Part shown: positions 5,127 through 31,764 of the stretch, piece after piece
How positions within the stretch are numbered: the stretch's first letter is position 1
Layout of the letters: every line of letters begins with the position of its first letter
Origin: a virus
Length of the DNA: 31,764 nt
Strand: one strand, 5' to 3'
Virus record (IMG/VR): IMGVR_UViG_3300042090_001631
Span: 1 to 31,764 of that record
Notes under the pieces: generated by a model
Told to the model about the DNA's origin: nothing
The model's input: the letters and a program-made list of their open reading frames with translations, nothing else
Databases searched by the model: none
Translations under genes and position numbers: made by a program

Positions 5127-6493
5127 AGAGATCCAAAGGTTGATGATATACCGCCTAATCCGTAATTATATTTCAACTGATCGCTGTAAATCGTATTAAT
5201 ACTTGCCTGTCCTATCTGCGCATAAGTTCTCGTTTCAATGATGTCATAGCGCTCCTTGAGCATCTTATCGATAAAGATCACACCGTCAGAATCAAGCCGC
5301 TCCTCAAAGATCTTCTTGGCGGCGCCGACAGCCAGAATTTCCCACCATTCCGATAGCTCCGGATTGCCTGTCATGTCTTCCGCTAATAGCGCCTGTATAG
5401 GTTGCCTATAACACTGCATCTCTATGGTATAACCGGCATCAGGCACGGGTGCTAGGGTAAATTGGTTTTGATAGAAGAGGATGGCTAGGGGGATAGATAA
5501 TTGCTTAGGGTTATATTGAATCTGTATAGTCGTACCTGCTGGAATAGGTTCAGCAAAGGTTAAGCCTATTATCTCACCCGTCTGATAGTTTATTGTGGCA
5601 TTCCCCGGCTCTGTAGGCGTTGCAGAGGCATACTGGCGATAGTACGTCCATCCGAAATTTTGATTGCTACTGTTACTCGTCTGAAAGATTTGAATTAAAT
5701 TGCCCTGCCCATCATCGGTAACATTCTGCGTCTGACCTACTCCATTTTCACCAATGACGTTCGCTGTAATAAGAATATTTTGAACTCGGCTTTGAGGGAA
5801 GAAAAGGTTAGGATTAATTTGAGGCCCGGGGTCATTGTTTACACTCGGAACAAATGGGAAGGCCGTGGTGAAGCCATTGTAAGGTGAGGAATACCAAGAG
5901 CCGCCTGAAGAGTAGACGCCAAAGGAAGAGGAATTAACCCCAATGGTGAAGGTATCAGCATCTATGACCGTAACTATGTATGAATTTCCATTCAATTGGA
6001 CCATGCCTTCGACATAATTGATGATTATGGAAATGCCGGAGACGAGTCCATGATTATCCGATGTTACGACAGCATCCGTGGCATTCGTTATGCCAGTTAT
6101 TGCACCTGTTTGCGCTCCTGTCGTTCCATCGCCAGTAGCAAAATTGGTAAATTGCTGCCAGTTGTAATTGTTAGCATAAAAGGACCAAGGGCTATCGAAC
6201 CAGCGCAACTCTCTTTTTGCGCAGGAAGCTGGCTCGCCTACAGTTGTATATAATTCGCTATTGAAGGAGTAAACCTCCTGTCCCACATTTGTGGTAAAGG
6301 TGTACACATCCTGCAACTTTAACGATCTAAACTTTGCAGGCAGATCGTAAGCATAGAAGCTATGCATTTGCTGGACGATATACGAATCCGTTACCTGGAA
6401 GGAATTACTCGATCCTGTAAGCTTACGCGTTTTTGTAACAGCATTTGCCAGCGTGGGATAAAGAGGAAATGTAGGCACAAATGTATTTGTCAT
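5123..6493 (-). CDS. Head-to-tail connector / tail tubular-type protein with FCCH-like insert
   Basis: A 456-residue structural protein. The N-terminal ~110 residues and the C-terminal region (LSEWWEILAVGAAKKIFEER, then a helical tail) have the helical character of podovirus head-tail adaptors (T7 gp11 / P22 gp4 role). Residues 131-200 are an inserted beta module: TSDNHGL, then GMVQLNG, then VIDADTFTI. This module also occurs in the 853-residue tail protein. The gene starts inside the stop of the methyltransferase gene (ATGA) and ends overlapping the next tiny gene. The structural assignment is by position and fold pattern, not by a decisive motif. Confidence 0.65.
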   Translation of the reverse strand: MTNTFVPTFPLYPTLANAVTKTRKLTGSSNSFQVTDSYIVQQMHSFYAYDLPAKFRSLKLQDVYTFTTNVGQEVYSFNSELYTTVGEPASCAKRELRWFDSPWSFYANNYNWQQFTNFATGDGTTGAQTGAITGITNATDAVVTSDNHGLVSGISIIINYVEGMVQLNGNSYIVTVIDADTFTIGVNSSSFGVYSSGGSWYSSPYNGFTTAFPFVPSVNNDPGPQINPNLFFPQSRVQNILITANVIGENGVGQTQNVTDDGQGNLIQIFQTSNSSNQNFGWTYYRQYASATPTEPGNATINYQTGEIIGLTFAEPIPAGTTIQIQYNPKQLSIPLAILFYQNQFTLAPVPDAGYTIEMQCYRQPIQALLAEDMTGNPELSEWWEILAVGAAKKIFEERLDSDGVIFIDKMLKERYDIIETRTYAQIGQASINTIYSDQLKYNYGLGGISSTFGSL

Positions 6494-7566
6494 TTCAGCC
6501 TCGCAATTGCTATATCACAATATTCCTTTTGTTTCTCAATTCCGATAGCATTTAAACCAAGATGTTTAGCTGCAATTAATGTAGATCCAGAACCCACAAA
6601 GGGATCTAAAACTATTCCATCTTTTGGAGTAATGAGTTTAATGAGGTAATCTAAAAGCTTGAGAGGTTTTACTGTTGGGTGATGATTCATTTGAGGTTTT
6701 GTTGTTAATCCAGCGCGAATTTTTTCTGAAGATAAATCCCAATTAGCAGGATCACCATCTTGTTGTCTCGATTTACAGGGCAATCCCTCTAATCCCTCAT
6801 TCCTTTCGGCAGTAGAAGCTTTGGCGCAGTAGAAGAAACGAGATGCTCCGCCTGAATTTGCAAAGAATTGATTTATATTTGCTTTATGAAAATGTCCATA
6901 TATATCATTTGATTTTGTGTGATTTAATAGACCAATAGAACCACTTGTCAATATCCCTGTTTGTTCATCTAACATTTCCGCTGCTTCTTCGTCGAATAAT
7001 ACATTTGCTGGCCAACGGCCCTGAACATTATTTATTTTAGGTTCAAAATTATCAGCATTCTTTGGGCTAATATCAAAAATATTTTCTCTATGTAAGCCAG
7101 AGGGTTGAGTATTTTCAAATGTTCCAATCCTACATTCATCAATATTCAAGAAATTATCAGCAATCTTTCGACTTGCTTTGCGTGCTAAGATTATAGGCTC
7201 ATAAGCAGGCTTCAGACATGCTTTACCCTTTGGGAATCCGGAGCCATATATCCACATGAGACAATCTCTTATTTCCCATCCTGCATCTTCAATAGCGCAT
7301 GTTAATCGATGATAAGTGCGTGTACCTCCAAAAGCTAGCATCCATGAGCCAGGTTTACATATTCTCAATGTTTCAGCCCAAAATTCCTTACCTGGAATGC
7401 CATGATCCCATTCTTTTCCCATGAATTTTAAGCCGTATGGAGGATCGGTTACGACAGAAGAAAAATAATTATCCTCGAATTTTCGCATTTCTTCGAGGCA
7501 ATCCCCATGGATAACCTGCTGTTGTTCATGCTCTTCACATAATATTGGCACACTATCTATAGTCAT
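6490..7566 (-). CDS. DNA adenine/cytosine-N4 methyltransferase, beta class
   Basis: A 358-residue S-adenosylmethionine-dependent DNA methyltransferase. The catalytic motif IV is DPPYG at residues 41-45. The S-adenosylmethionine-binding motif I is at the C-terminus (DPFVGSGST, residues 321-329), followed by the acidic IGIE of motif II. This order, catalytic motif first and FxGxG last, defines the beta class, which makes N6-methyladenine or N4-methylcytosine. The middle region (about 100-290) presumably holds the target-recognition domain. No restriction enzyme gene is adjacent, so it is probably an orphan methylase protecting phage DNA or altering regulation. It is unusual in sitting inside the virion operon, coupled at both ends by ATGA overlaps. 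Confidence 0.92.
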   Translation of the reverse strand: MTIDSVPILCEEHEQQQVIHGDCLEEMRKFEDNYFSSVVTDPPYGLKFMGKEWDHGIPGKEFWAETLRICKPGSWMLAFGGTRTYHRLTCAIEDAGWEIRDCLMWIYGSGFPKGKACLKPAYEPIILARKASRKIADNFLNIDECRIGTFENTQPSGLHRENIFDISPKNADNFEPKINNVQGRWPANVLFDEEAAEMLDEQTGILTSGSIGLLNHTKSNDIYGHFHKANINQFFANSGGASRFFYCAKASTAERNEGLEGLPCKSRQQDGDPANWDLSSEKIRAGLTTKPQMNHHPTVKPLKLLDYLIKLITPKDGIVLDPFVGSGSTLIAAKHLGLNAIGIEKQKEYCDIAIARLK

Positions 7567-7967
7567 AATACCGGTTGATTATCAAATGCATCTTCTAAAG
7601 TAACCGTCGTCGTTCCCTGAATAACTCCAGAGCCTACCGGCACTGCTACGCAGGGAACCTGCGGATCTTGTACATATATAAACGGATAAAAATTACTTGT
7701 GTCTACAGCTATTGTTACAGTATTAGACGTAATAGATATTATTTGCCCCTTTTGATTATTCAACTGGATCATACCGTTAGCCGGAGGGATACGAAAACCT
7801 ATCCATTCGGCTACGGTAAAATTGTGATTGCCTGCAAAGGTAACGAGGGCAGTAGCTGCCTGAGTAATATCCGTTATATATTGCAAATTCGGAATAAAGT
7901 CAGAACCGTAAGGAGGGCCATAGTTAGAAGCACCTCCCGGCACGACATGAATAGACGAATTGCTCAC
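7563..7967 (-). CDS. Short beta-domain virion protein, paralogue of the 362-residue protein
   Basis: A 134-residue protein. Residues 29-103 form an FCCH-like beta module (ITDITQAATALV, then GMIQLNN, then SNTVTIAVDTSNF). It ends with CVAVPVGSGVI followed by LEDAFDNQ. The same signature (CVPAGSGVI, then LADAFDN) ends the module in the 362-residue protein just upstream in the operon, so this looks like a shortened duplicate. Both junctions are ATGA overlaps. Probably a head or tail surface/decoration protein; function inferred. Confidence 0.65.
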   Translation of the reverse strand: MSNSSIHVVPGGASNYGPPYGSDFIPNLQYITDITQAATALVTFAGNHNFTVAEWIGFRIPPANGMIQLNNQKGQIISITSNTVTIAVDTSNFYPFIYVQDPQVPCVAVPVGSGVIQGTTTVTLEDAFDNQPVL

Positions 7968-24594: not shown

Positions 24595-24834
24595 TCACGT
24601 AACTTTCGCCAAAATACTCGACTCATCGATTACGATAAACTTCTCATTATCGTAGTCGATCTCCGCCCCGAAGTGCTTATCCAAAAAGATCACGTTACCG
24701 GGAGTAACTTTCGTAACTTCATCGCCTATCGCAATTACTTTAAACTGCGTATACTTTTGCGTATTTACAATTAACGTTCCGTGTTTAATTTCCACAGGTT
24801 TAATAATAATTCTTTTGCCTACAGGTGTTAACAT
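24595..24834 (-). CDS. GroES-like co-chaperonin (Cpn10), minimal
   Basis: A 79-residue protein from the ATG preceded by AAGGAG. Its sequence follows the Cpn10 beta-barrel: LTPVGKRIIIKPVEI, then the loop KHGTLIVNTQ, then KVIAIGDEV, then PGNVIFLDKHFGAEID, and finally EKFIVIDESSILAKV, which matches the GroES ending. It is shorter than bacterial GroES (about 97 residues). The mobile loop is reduced, with GTLIV in place of the usual GGIVL, and the roof hairpin appears deleted. Phage co-chaperonins (T4 gp31, RB49 CocO) work with host GroEL to fold the capsid protein. Here it may serve the N4-type capsid protein. Fold assignment is confident; function is inferred. Confidence 0.82.
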   Translation of the reverse strand: MLTPVGKRIIIKPVEIKHGTLIVNTQKYTQFKVIAIGDEVTKVTPGNVIFLDKHFGAEIDYDNEKFIVIDESSILAKVT

Positions 24835-24900
24835 AATTTGAAACTCCTTGCTTTTTTTTAGACTTTCCATTATCTTAAAATTTTACACAAGGTGAAAGAA

Positions 24901-25776: not shown

Positions 25777-26724
25777 TCAAACTATTTTTTTCCTCATGCT
25801 CTTCATCGAGATAAAATTTTCGCATACAAGTTGCATTTCCCCATCGGCCAGAGAGACGAAAAAAGTTTCCTGATACGCACTTTCATGCTCGAAGAGCACA
25901 CCTCGCTGATCTTTCGTTTTTTCATGGTACAAAGAACATCTCCAACCTCGGCCGCTCTTGTATTCGCAAAACTCCTCGCATAACTTTTCCGCATATGAAA
26001 AATTTTCTTTGCCTTTCGCACTCTTCTTGCTTTTCGTTTCCCACGTGGAAAGAGCATGAGGCCAATCTTTGATCGCATATTTGCGCTTTGGGCTAGCGAG
26101 TATTTCCGCTATCGCTTGCTTAACGCTCTCCAAGTTCCCCTTGATTTTCAAACACAAGTCTAAGTCGCCCTTCGTCATGAAAACGCCTTGGCCAACCTCT
26201 TCCTTTTCGCGAGAAAAAGAAAAGTCATCCGTCATCTGCCCGTCATCCCGATCCGCCAAAGTCCGGTCAAAAGAAGGGGTAGAGGGATGATTCTTTCTTA
26301 TCTTTCTTATCTTTCTTAGTTTGTCGTTGGTCGGTCGTTGGTCGGTCGTTGGGCAGTCGTTATTTCGGTCGTTACCATCATTTGAATTTATATCCCAAAC
26401 CGTTGAAGATAAGAGCTTTACTTTAGTTGAAACGGTCGTTATTCCGGTCGTTGAATTTTTGCGAGTACGGCAAGTTTCGATGATTTTGAGGTGTTGGCGC
26501 TTTACCAAAATTGCTTTTGCGGTGCGGTAATTTTGTTCACTCATATCATAGTTTTTAAAACCGCCAATATAGCATTCACCAATATGTAAACCATCGGGAT
26601 CACCTTCATATCGGCGGGCGGATTCTGCAATAATAGTGAGTAAGCGGAAGGCGTGGCCTCTATTTTTTAGTAGCCACATAGCTTCTTCTGAGGGAATGAA
26701 TTTTATAAATCTTTCTTTTGTCAT
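25777..26724 (-). CDS. Replication initiator-like protein (phage O/DnaD-type layout)
   Basis: A 315-residue protein from the ATG after GGAGG. Residues 1-110 look like a winged-helix domain (SEEAMWLLKNRGHAFRLLTI, then GFKNYDMSEQNYRTAKAILV). A polar, low-complexity linker follows (about 115-185, Asn/Asp/Thr/Lys-rich). The C-terminal domain is helical (DWPHALSTWETKSKK, then FSYAEKLCEEF). This architecture resembles phage replication initiators and helicase-loader recruiters. The linker region coincides with iteron-like DNA repeats, as in lambda O. No Walker motifs are present. It heads a leftward set with SSB-like, RusA-like and GroES-like proteins. Confidence 0.6.
   Translation of the reverse strand: MTKERFIKFIPSEEAMWLLKNRGHAFRLLTIIAESARRYEGDPDGLHIGECYIGGFKNYDMSEQNYRTAKAILVKRQHLKIIETCRTRKNSTTGITTVSTKVKLLSSTVWDINSNDGNDRNNDCPTTDQRPTNDKLRKIRKIRKNHPSTPSFDRTLADRDDGQMTDDFSFSREKEEVGQGVFMTKGDLDLCLKIKGNLESVKQAIAEILASPKRKYAIKDWPHALSTWETKSKKSAKGKENFSYAEKLCEEFCEYKSGRGWRCSLYHEKTKDQRGVLFEHESAYQETFFVSLADGEMQLVCENFISMKSMRKKIV
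26292..26318. repeat. Three tandem 9-bp AT-rich repeats beside the iterons
   Basis: TCTTTCTTA occurs three times head to tail (26292-26300, 26301-26309, 26310-26318). Read on the coding strand it gives repeated Lys-Ile-Arg. It is adjacent to the GTCGTT array and could serve as an unwinding element of an origin, or simply reflect a repeated basic peptide. Confidence 0.7.
26323..26452. repeat. Phased GTCGTT array, candidate replication origin iterons
   Basis: GTCGTT occurs at 26323, 26334, 26345, 26356 and 26368 (spacings 11, 11, 11, 12), and again at 26435 and 26447 (spacing 12). Most copies are preceded by CG or GG, giving CGGTCGTT. The 11-12 bp period places them on one face of the helix and changes reading frame between copies, so the repetition is at DNA level. 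Confidence 0.7.
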
Positions 26725-26909
26725 AAATCCTCCATAAAAGGCTTGCACAAATCTTCATGGAGTGTTATGATAAAGGCGTAGTTACAATCTTTATAAGTCT
26801 TACTCCATAAGACAGACAGCCTTATACCCCGTTTAGTACACGGGGTATTTTCATTTAAAAAGCTACCACAAGTGGTAAATCTAGAGCAATAAAGTTTTAT
26901 ATTACTCAT
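26721..26909 (-). CDS. Doubtful small open frame before the initiator gene
   Basis: A 62-residue frame (MSNIKLYCSRFTTCGSFL and onward) overlapping the stop of the 91-residue gene and the start of the initiator gene. It is cysteine-containing with no recognisable fold and contains a strong hairpin (26824-26848). The ATGAGTAA overlap favours it, but the region could equally be an untranslated structured leader. Confidence 0.28.
   Translation of the reverse strand: MSNIKLYCSRFTTCGSFLNENTPCTKRGIRLSVLWSKTYKDCNYAFIITLHEDLCKPFMEDL
26824..26848 (+). other. Strong hairpin upstream of the initiator gene
   Basis: ATACCCCGT (26824-26832) and ACGGGGTAT (26840-26848) form nine perfect pairs with a 7-base loop. 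On the plus strand it is followed by TTTC and then ATTT, so it may terminate rightward transcription. On the minus strand it lies in the leader between the 91-residue gene and the initiator gene. Confidence 0.45.
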
Positions 26910-27177: not shown

Positions 27178-27221
27178 AGTCCTCAACAATTAAATTTTTC
27201 TTTTTTTTTCTTGTTTAATTT

Positions 27222-27344
27222 ATCGAGGAAACAGTACTATCTTTTGCGAAAATATCTTACCTTCCTCGATGAACACGCATGGTTGGTTGATGTTTTTGAT
27301 GATATCACGTTCCATGGTGCAGCTAATTGGCGTTAGCTGCATCA
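27222..27344. promoter_or_regulatory. Two large dyads in the leftward leader/control region
   Basis: ATCGAGGAA (27222-27230) is matched by TTCCTCGAT (27262-27270), a 9-bp perfect inverted repeat around 31 bases. TGGTGCAGCTAA (27315-27326) pairs with TTAGCTGCATCA (27333-27344), 12-bp arms with one G-T. The 27190-27446 interval has no convincing gene; these dyads are its main content and may be operators or leader-RNA structures. Confidence 0.5.
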
Positions 27345-27370
27345 CTTTCATAATATTTTTCAAAAATTAT

Positions 27371-27399
27371 TTGCAACTTCTTTCGTTATCCATTAATGT
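27371..27399 (+). promoter_or_regulatory. Candidate rightward promoter
   Basis: TTGCAA (27371-27376), a 17-base spacer and TAATGT (27394-27399), about 47 bases before the small membrane-protein gene at 27447. Transcripts would run antisense into the repressor gene. It is moderately close to consensus only. Confidence 0.35.
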
Positions 27400-27446
27400 C
27401 AAGATATGAAGAAAGGAAAATATTTTTTACCTATAGAGGTATATGT

Positions 27447-30489: not shown

Positions 30490-31764
30490 CTATATATATT
30501 CTGTAATTATTACAACACCAGGCGCTCCATTTCCTCCACTTTGTCCTGAAGCATTACTATTTACTGAAGATGCTCCTCCTCCTCCCCCCCCATAACCCAT
30601 GGCATTTCCTCCATTGTTTGATGCTACACTACAAGCGCCTCCACTACCATAGAAAGATGCTCCTCCTAAACCTCCTGCAGAATAATATGCTCCTACAACT
30701 GGTATAGTCAATCCAAAGCCACCAGCTTGTCCACCACTTCCAACATCTCCCGTACCAAGACTGCCAGCCGCTCCACCTCCTGCTGGAATTATTGAAGATA
30801 TTGCGCCTGCATAACTTGCACCTCCTCCATAAGGAGCCAAACATAAAGTTCCTACAGAAGAAGCAGATCCATTGCTTCCAAATGGCGATCCTGCCGTTCC
30901 ACCTGCTCCTCCTGAGCCTACGGTTACTGTTTGACTAGATCCTATAGTAGCAGCAGAAGCTGTTTTTCTAGCATATCCACCACCACCACCACCACCACCT
31001 GCTGAACATTGTGTTGAATTAGTTGCTTGTGCTCCTCCTCCTCCTCCTCCTCCTCCAACACATTCTATTGTACAATAAAGCATTCCAGCTGTAGGTGTAT
31101 ACGTTCCAGATGTTGTAAATACTTGAACAGTTATAGAAGTAAAACCAGAAGCATTAGTAGCAGCAATACTAATAGAATTATGACCGTTTGTTATTGAAAT
31201 ACCAGATCCTGCCGTTAATGTCGCAGCTGCTGGATTACCTGCGCTACTTCCTATAGCTAACTGTCCATCTGTCAATGTAACAGCTGTTAATGCTGTAGTT
31301 GAAGTTGCTCCAGAAATTACAACGCCTGTAGTATTAAAACTTGTTGATGCAGTGCCACCTCCTGCAATTAAAGCAGTCGAAAAAGATGGATCAGAAGAAG
31401 AGCCATTTGACACGAGAGGTACTCCGGAAGTTGCAGAGGGAGCAACATTGGTAATTGTAGCACTTCCTGCTCCTACTAGAACATTATGATTCGTTAATCC
31501 TGTTAATTGAGTTGTAAGCGTGCTACCACTACCTGCAATTGTAATGCTTCCTGTGCCAAGTGTGTTGATATTTCCTGCACTCGGCGAAATAGCCCCTCCT
31601 GTATTACCAGTCAAGGTCTCTAAAACGGTAGATCCATTTGCAGCAATGGTAATAGAATTATGCCCATTGGTTATAGTTATTCCAGTTCCTGCTGTTAATG
31701 TAGCGGCTGCAGGTGCGCCTGCTGAAGATCCTATAATTAACTGCCCATCTGAAGCTAAAGCTGT
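30490..31764 (-). CDS. Glycine-rich tail fibre/adhesin, 5' end beyond the window
   Basis: The frame is open to the right edge, so the visible 424 residues are the C-terminal part of a longer protein; the TTG at 31614 is internal. The N-terminal visible half has repeats of DGQLxIGSSAGxPAAATLTAG, then TNGHNSI-IAA (two copies about 120 residues apart) and the pattern TNHNVLVGAG. The C-terminal half begins FTTSGTYTPTAGM, then ECVGGGGGGGG, the common phage glycine-rich domain. It continues with many Gly runs and ends VVIITEYI. Such domains form poly-glycine tips for receptor binding. It ends just before small accessory genes. Confidence 0.8.
   Translation of the reverse strand, partial: TALASDGQLIIGSSAGAPAAATLTAGTGITITNGHNSITIAANGSTVLETLTGNTGGAISPSAGNINTLGTGSITIAGSGSTLTTQLTGLTNHNVLVGAGSATITNVAPSATSGVPLVSNGSSSDPSFSTALIAGGGTASTSFNTTGVVISGATSTTALTAVTLTDGQLAIGSSAGNPAAATLTAGSGISITNGHNSISIAATNASGFTSITVQVFTTSGTYTPTAGMLYCTIECVGGGGGGGGAQATNSTQCSAGGGGGGGGYARKTASAATIGSSQTVTVGSGGAGGTAGSPFGSNGSASSVGTLCLAPYGGGASYAGAISSIIPAGGGAAGSLGTGDVGSGGQAGGFGLTIPVVGAYYSAGGLGGASFYGSGGACSVASNNGGNAMGYGGGGGGASSVNSNASGQSGGNGAPGVVIITEYI
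31032..31056. repeat. Trinucleotide microsatellite in the fibre gene
   Basis: CTC repeated about eight times, coding for a run of eight glycines in the adhesin tip. A similar CCA tract (30977-30999) lies nearby. Slippage by whole triplets would lengthen or shorten the glycine run without a frameshift. Confidence 0.8.

Follow-up and report, generated by a model that had tools for sequence, protein, structure and literature searches.

In phage lambda, iterons followed by an AT-rich tract lie in the middle of the O initiator gene, and the four iterons of ori-lambda are imperfect inverted repeats of 19 bp (PMC7466680). For 80alpha ORF20 and SPP1 gene 38, the origin is likewise located inside the replisome-organizer gene; that of 80alpha was placed in ORF20 by its authors because complementation in trans failed, and ORF20 is paired with a helicase loader, ORF21 (PMC5499656). 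Among plasmids, the RepA_N protein Rep of pSK41 is a 319-aa initiator whose first 120 residues form a winged helix that binds boxes central in rep. The origin-encoded middle part is dispensable as protein and the C-terminal domain is genus-specific; in a pPR9 hybrid, which has a phage-like N-domain, the binding domain and the origin have been swapped as a block (PMC5703833). Most boxes of the RepA_N type are semi-palindromes surrounding a poly-A tract (PMC7145576).

The window analysed here is the whole of a 31.8-kb viral contig (IMG/VR record IMGVR_UViG_3300042090_001631, 31,764 nucleotides), on which terminase, portal, head, tail, ERF and YqaJ-type genes are annotated. Based on its translation and a weak PHROG match, a replication-initiator gene (315 aa) was assigned to the minus strand at 25777–26724, stop codon included. 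A sequence-only reading of this gene had likened it to lambda O. The layout, iterons and then an AT-rich tract midway through an initiator gene, is indeed common to both, but the window carries five plus two sites in the form of 11-bp direct repeats, not 19-bp imperfect inverted repeats, and the nearest domain plan is that of pSK41 Rep. Phage_rep_O (PF04492) was matched neither by the window protein at E 0.01 nor by any of the 22 members of its family at E 0.1. Central origin-like DNA and an exchangeable C-terminal domain are common to pSK41 Rep and the window family, whereas the sites differ from the semi-palindromic boxes of RepA_N plasmids in being 11-bp direct repeats, and no Pfam match to RepA_N (PF06970) was found in the 22 family members, window included. 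As regards 80alpha ORF20 and SPP1 gene 38, which were compared by published description and not by DNA, the origin-in-gene layout is common, but the window protein belongs to a different family by sequence, and neither a helicase gene nor a loader gene was found in the vicinity of the array.

For characterization of the protein, profile searches were combined with AlphaFold models and structural comparison. The sole PHROG profile matched by the window protein was 'replication initiation protein' phrog_2562, weakly (E 0.004), and no Pfam family was matched at E 0.01. Across the 22 family members, 'replisome organizer' phrog_13246 was matched by five (best E 5.7e-19) and phrog_2514 by three (best 8.8e-8), with DnaD-like and O-like PHROGs among the matches. 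The model and its structural matches place a winged-helix DNA-binding domain at residues 1–112 (26389–26724, minus strand), with block means of pLDDT between 81 and 94 for residues 11–80 and lower values in the wing loop (87–97). Matches to this domain were ordinary winged helices; the RepA_N-type N-domain 4pql and the 'Rep-DNA complex' 5kbj were found amid many others (Z 7.3 and 6.5, 81–82 residues, rmsd 3.0–3.1), and because all matches had Z below 8, only the fold class is claimed. The linker (residues ~115–171) is unstructured in the model, with pLDDT mostly below 50. It leads to a C-terminal domain, residues 174–315 (25780–26205, minus strand), which presumably recruits the replisome and is swapped for other domains in relatives. 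Modelled separately, this domain had a mean pLDDT of 81 and matched no PDB structure with Z of 5 or more; neither model had a Foldseek match in the PDB with E below 0.001, and a sequence profile gave only weak, implausible matches to PDB chains.

On the plus strand, GTCGTT starts at 26323, 26334, 26345, 26356 and 26368 (steps of 11, 11, 11 and 12), then at 26435 and 26447, which bears out the seven copies and the spacing reported at first. In the gene direction these are AACGAC sites at nt 272, 284, 351, 363, 374, 385 and 396 (steps of 12, 67, 12, 11, 11 and 11), lying in reading frames 2, 2, 0, 0, 2, 1 and 0. All seven had been assigned to the linker. This is correct for the main array of five (26323–26373, minus strand, codons 118–134, all three frames), but iteron 1 (26447–26452, minus strand) and iteron 2 (26435–26440, minus strand) are located in codons of the winged-helix wing (STTGITT); the distance between these two is 12 bp in most homologues, and their core covaries with that of the array. 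Tandem Repeats Finder recovered the main array independently (period 11, 4.5 copies at 26323–26373). By shuffling, about seven copies of GTCGTT are expected over both strands of the window; the chain at 10–12-bp spacing is five long and never exceeded one in 300 first-order Markov windows, far beyond what base composition gives. When the gene was redrawn synonymously at the phage's own codon usage (2000 draws), a mean of 0.54 sites and a maximum of 4 were obtained, against the 7 present. A protein or codon repeat was ruled out by this resampling together with the frame rotation.

The three tandem 9-mers previously seen beside the iterons are present as TCTTTCTTA at 26292–26318, reading TAAGAAAGA on the coding (minus) strand, and Tandem Repeats Finder gave period 9, 3.0 copies and 100% match. 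These units are in frame in the window phage, so the earlier argument from a spacing that is not a multiple of three covers the 11-bp array only. Most relatives have their A-rich units at a 10-bp step, out of frame (19 cases of 10 bp against 7 of 9 bp, with varying frames), and the first starts 10–11 bp past the start of the last iteron in most homologues. By nearest-neighbour stability, the 35-bp stretch from 26287 is the weakest near the array and ranks in the weakest 3% window-wide, although the A-rich tract is not the gene's single weakest stretch in every homologue. By sequence, an AT-rich region adjoins the repeats as in iteron origins embedded in initiator genes, and the three units are a candidate unwinding element.

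Conservation was followed in 22 aligned sequences, the window and 21 homologues with 31–62% protein identity. One homologue came from a protein search, 12 loci from a profile search and more from DNA-pattern scans; a protein search of genome contigs returned no relative. The spacing of the seven sites was identical in eight homologues (L069 being a near duplicate of L107), and in most others the array differs by simple loss or gain of one unit, with L108 and L248 partly outside the standard register. One homologue, L002, has one 11-bp unit fewer with its A-rich units intact, and the DNA beyond is therefore read in another frame. Four others (L245–L247 and L249) match the window at residues 4–150 only and carry another C-terminal domain behind an intact array. 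Where aligned amino acids were identical, the N-domain had the same codon in 46% of cases and the C-domain in 42%; the corresponding values were 73% for the wing iterons, 72% for the spacer, 87% for the array and 76% for the A-rich part (array versus rest, Fisher P 1.5e-31, with all pairs sharing the window sequence and relatedness uncorrected). From this profile a cis-constrained element was delimited at about 26275–26460 (minus strand, codons 89–150, synonymous identity 0.72–0.87 against 0.46 before and 0.42 after), slightly wider than the 26292–26452 of the first reading. Direct repeats within the initiator coding sequence are thus conserved at the DNA level, as in embedded iteron origins. 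The alignment that the sequence-only reading had called for shows spacing, core and A-rich units kept while linker frame, iteron number and C-terminal domain vary. The opposite pattern, a linker peptide kept with its phased repeats lost, was not seen; homologues lacking AACGAC carry another core in the same places. In the L031 initiator, the wing-to-DIN segment (residues ~113–165) is apparently duplicated, the first iteron set being degenerate and the second intact.

The replaced cores are GACGAC (L242, L250), GACAAC (L243, L059), GACGAA (L244), AACCAA (L012) and AACCAC (L349). The wing sites change along with the array, and the TTG.TT wing peptide is largely kept. Compared with the core of their own array, wing sites matched at 124 of 126 letters; the shuffled mean was 107.9 and none of 20,000 shuffles scored as high, in a model that leaves relatedness aside. 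Because the cores drift in concert, the wing and linker copies are taken as one set of putative binding sites, and this joint drift is the strongest single reason for that reading.

As the repeats are kept even where the protein is swapped or the frame changed, they very probably mark the start of DNA copying. We regard a phage replication origin inside its own initiator gene as the best explanation of the locus, and a highly probable one; the earlier proposal of an origin is strengthened by the kept spacing, core and A-rich units, and initiation at the window array is what we infer from them. The N-terminal winged helix would bind the AACGAC iterons, reading each 11-bp unit from one helix face. 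Five sites would be stacked one helical turn apart on a single face of the DNA, with two more about 67 bp upstream in the wing codons. A filament of initiator, together with bending strain, could open the neighbouring A-rich units, and the C-terminal domain would bring in the replication machinery; the linker peptide may be largely a by-product of origin DNA. GC skew was dropped as an origin marker: on this linear contig the cumulative minimum falls at 31086, near the contig end, and the curve tracks gene direction, leaving the array unmarked. DnaA boxes numbered 41 against 38 expected, with no cluster at the array.

Viral contigs were then scanned blind for AACGAC or CGAACA triplets at 11 bp. 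The AACGAC scan returned at least 107 viral loci outside the family that came from the triplets alone, at least 79 of them with an ORF of 120 aa or more over the array; among the matches listed, 76 ORFs were sense and 3 antisense, and 67 had the array 85–180 aa from the start. Of 64 proteins among the matches listed, 38 matched DnaD-like helicase loader PHROGs and 26 an O-like PHROG, and in Pfam 11 of the 64 matched DUF1376 and 9 Lin1244_N. Again among the matches listed, an A-rich tract (52% A, 67% A+T) came after the arrays, and an extra AACGAC was present 40–110 bp upstream in 16 of the 66 scan loci listed, against one in the equivalent downstream window. The permuted hexamer CGAACA was intended as a negative control. 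It gave 89 sense and 4 antisense ORFs, 69 with the array at 85–180 aa, among the matches listed; it also lands in phage initiators, so it is the spacing and the place that are special and not the core. Both scans together, among the matches listed, placed the array in ORFs of 120 aa or more 165 times in sense and 7 times in antisense, with 136 arrays 85–180 aa from the ORF start. In the main, then, a blind search at 11-bp spacing leads to initiator genes of phages, whose arrays lie in sense orientation immediately after the N-terminal domain. A control at 10-bp spacing gave 36 matches, against at least 120 at 11 bp. Nine of its 17 larger ORFs had the array at 85–180 aa on the sense strand, and 10-bp versions may therefore exist. 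AACGAC arrays with a 10-bp step (e.g. TSTTVNDRQRPST) were also noticed at L268, L272 and L295, in a further gene that is apparently a phage gene.

Known-phage initiators sharing the N-domain were picked by protein alone, and 10 of 13 had a significant 11/22-bp array: those of Enterococcus EH-TP1, Bacillus 000TH010, Staphylococcus StB27, SA7 and SP5 (arrays in the linker in these three), Vibrio 1.177, Lactobacillus Lrm1 and Lc-Nu, Listeria 188 and Pseudomonas Orisa03. The closest cultured-phage relative is NVP1177O_71 of Vibrio phage 1.177.O (MG592544; 34.5% over residues 14–126), annotated as hypothetical; its three 11-bp repeats of the AAGCGACAGGC type and the A-rich tract after them follow the layout of the window gene, but with another core and another C-terminal region. 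Seven initiators reached via the C-domain only, including an E. coli phage O gene, had no clear 11/22-bp array. In DUF1376 genes of Pseudomonadota genomes, 11 or 22 came first among 13 lags for 11 of 23 (about 3.5 expected were all lags alike), and in Bacillota phrog_2514 genes for 6 of 16, a weaker signal. Out-of-frame repeats of 11/22 bp or 7 bp are frequent in DUF1376 genes (L462–L485), which suggests that these encode phage initiators and contain their origins. The 11-bp layout is thus common in phages, though not universal, and possibly widespread. We put at even chances the broader proposal of a general tailed-phage origin design, spread over many initiator families including DUF1376, in which 11-bp iteron arrays in all three frames follow a winged helix and adjoin an A-rich tract. 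Binding domain and origin would then be exchanged as a single module and shift their specificity together, and the codons of the DNA-contacting wing would hold some of the sites. No description of such phage arrays was found in the open-access literature; subscription journals lay outside this search, and an earlier description may exist.

Iterons of plasmids serve both as origins and as control sites. The array could accordingly be a site at which the initiator is bound for copy control, autoregulation or incompatibility, with replication starting elsewhere, for instance in the gap at 27190–27440, which lies between divergent operons and is AT-rich with operator-like inverted repeats. We consider this improbable: the array lies 270–400 bp inside the gene, away from its start, and an A-rich, unwinding-like tract adjoins it both within the family and at the loci from the blind scans. 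Still less probable is a recognition site for packaging, partition or inter-module recombination. The swapping of C-terminal domains directly behind the array speaks for it, but such exchange is what a self-contained module of binding domain plus origin predicts, and array and winged-helix domain go together in initiator genes of many unrelated phages. A low-complexity coding stretch grown by slippage, with no role at the DNA level, would fit the tandem repeats and the linker's model confidence below 50, but it is scarcely credible for repeats that are read in three frames, conserved synonymously and kept across exchanged C-terminal domains, and is in essence refuted by wing sites some 67 bp away that drift in step with the array.

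If the embedded-origin reading is true, the origins of many uncultured phages could be read from sequence alone, by finding the initiator gene and then the out-of-frame 11-bp repeat behind its N-terminal domain, and DUF1376 proteins, whose function is given as unknown in Pfam, would gain a testable role. The cores AACGAC, GACGAC, GACAAC and AACCAC would provide a natural initiator–iteron series for studying joint specificity change, in which DNA-binding domain and sites are encoded by the same bases.

A scan of bacterial genomes for AACGAC triplets gave mostly unrelated arrays. Those at L197, L204, L182, L238 and other Bacteroidales loci (e.g. RKRHVNDTETTRKRDVNDT, in Bacteroidales/Paludibacteraceae MAGs) lie within or at the ends of housekeeping genes on both strands and are apparently an unrelated dispersed repeat. 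Elsewhere in the window, a strong hairpin with a T-rich tail, terminator-like on the plus strand, is located at 26824–26848, just upstream of the initiator gene. A small GroES-like co-chaperonin gene (24595–24870, minus strand; Cpn10, E 8.5e-8) lies near the replication genes, and an ORF at 7636–7941 of L002 resembles it. A DNA methyltransferase-like gene (6490–7566, minus strand; phrog_67, 8.9e-64) is found amid the structural genes.
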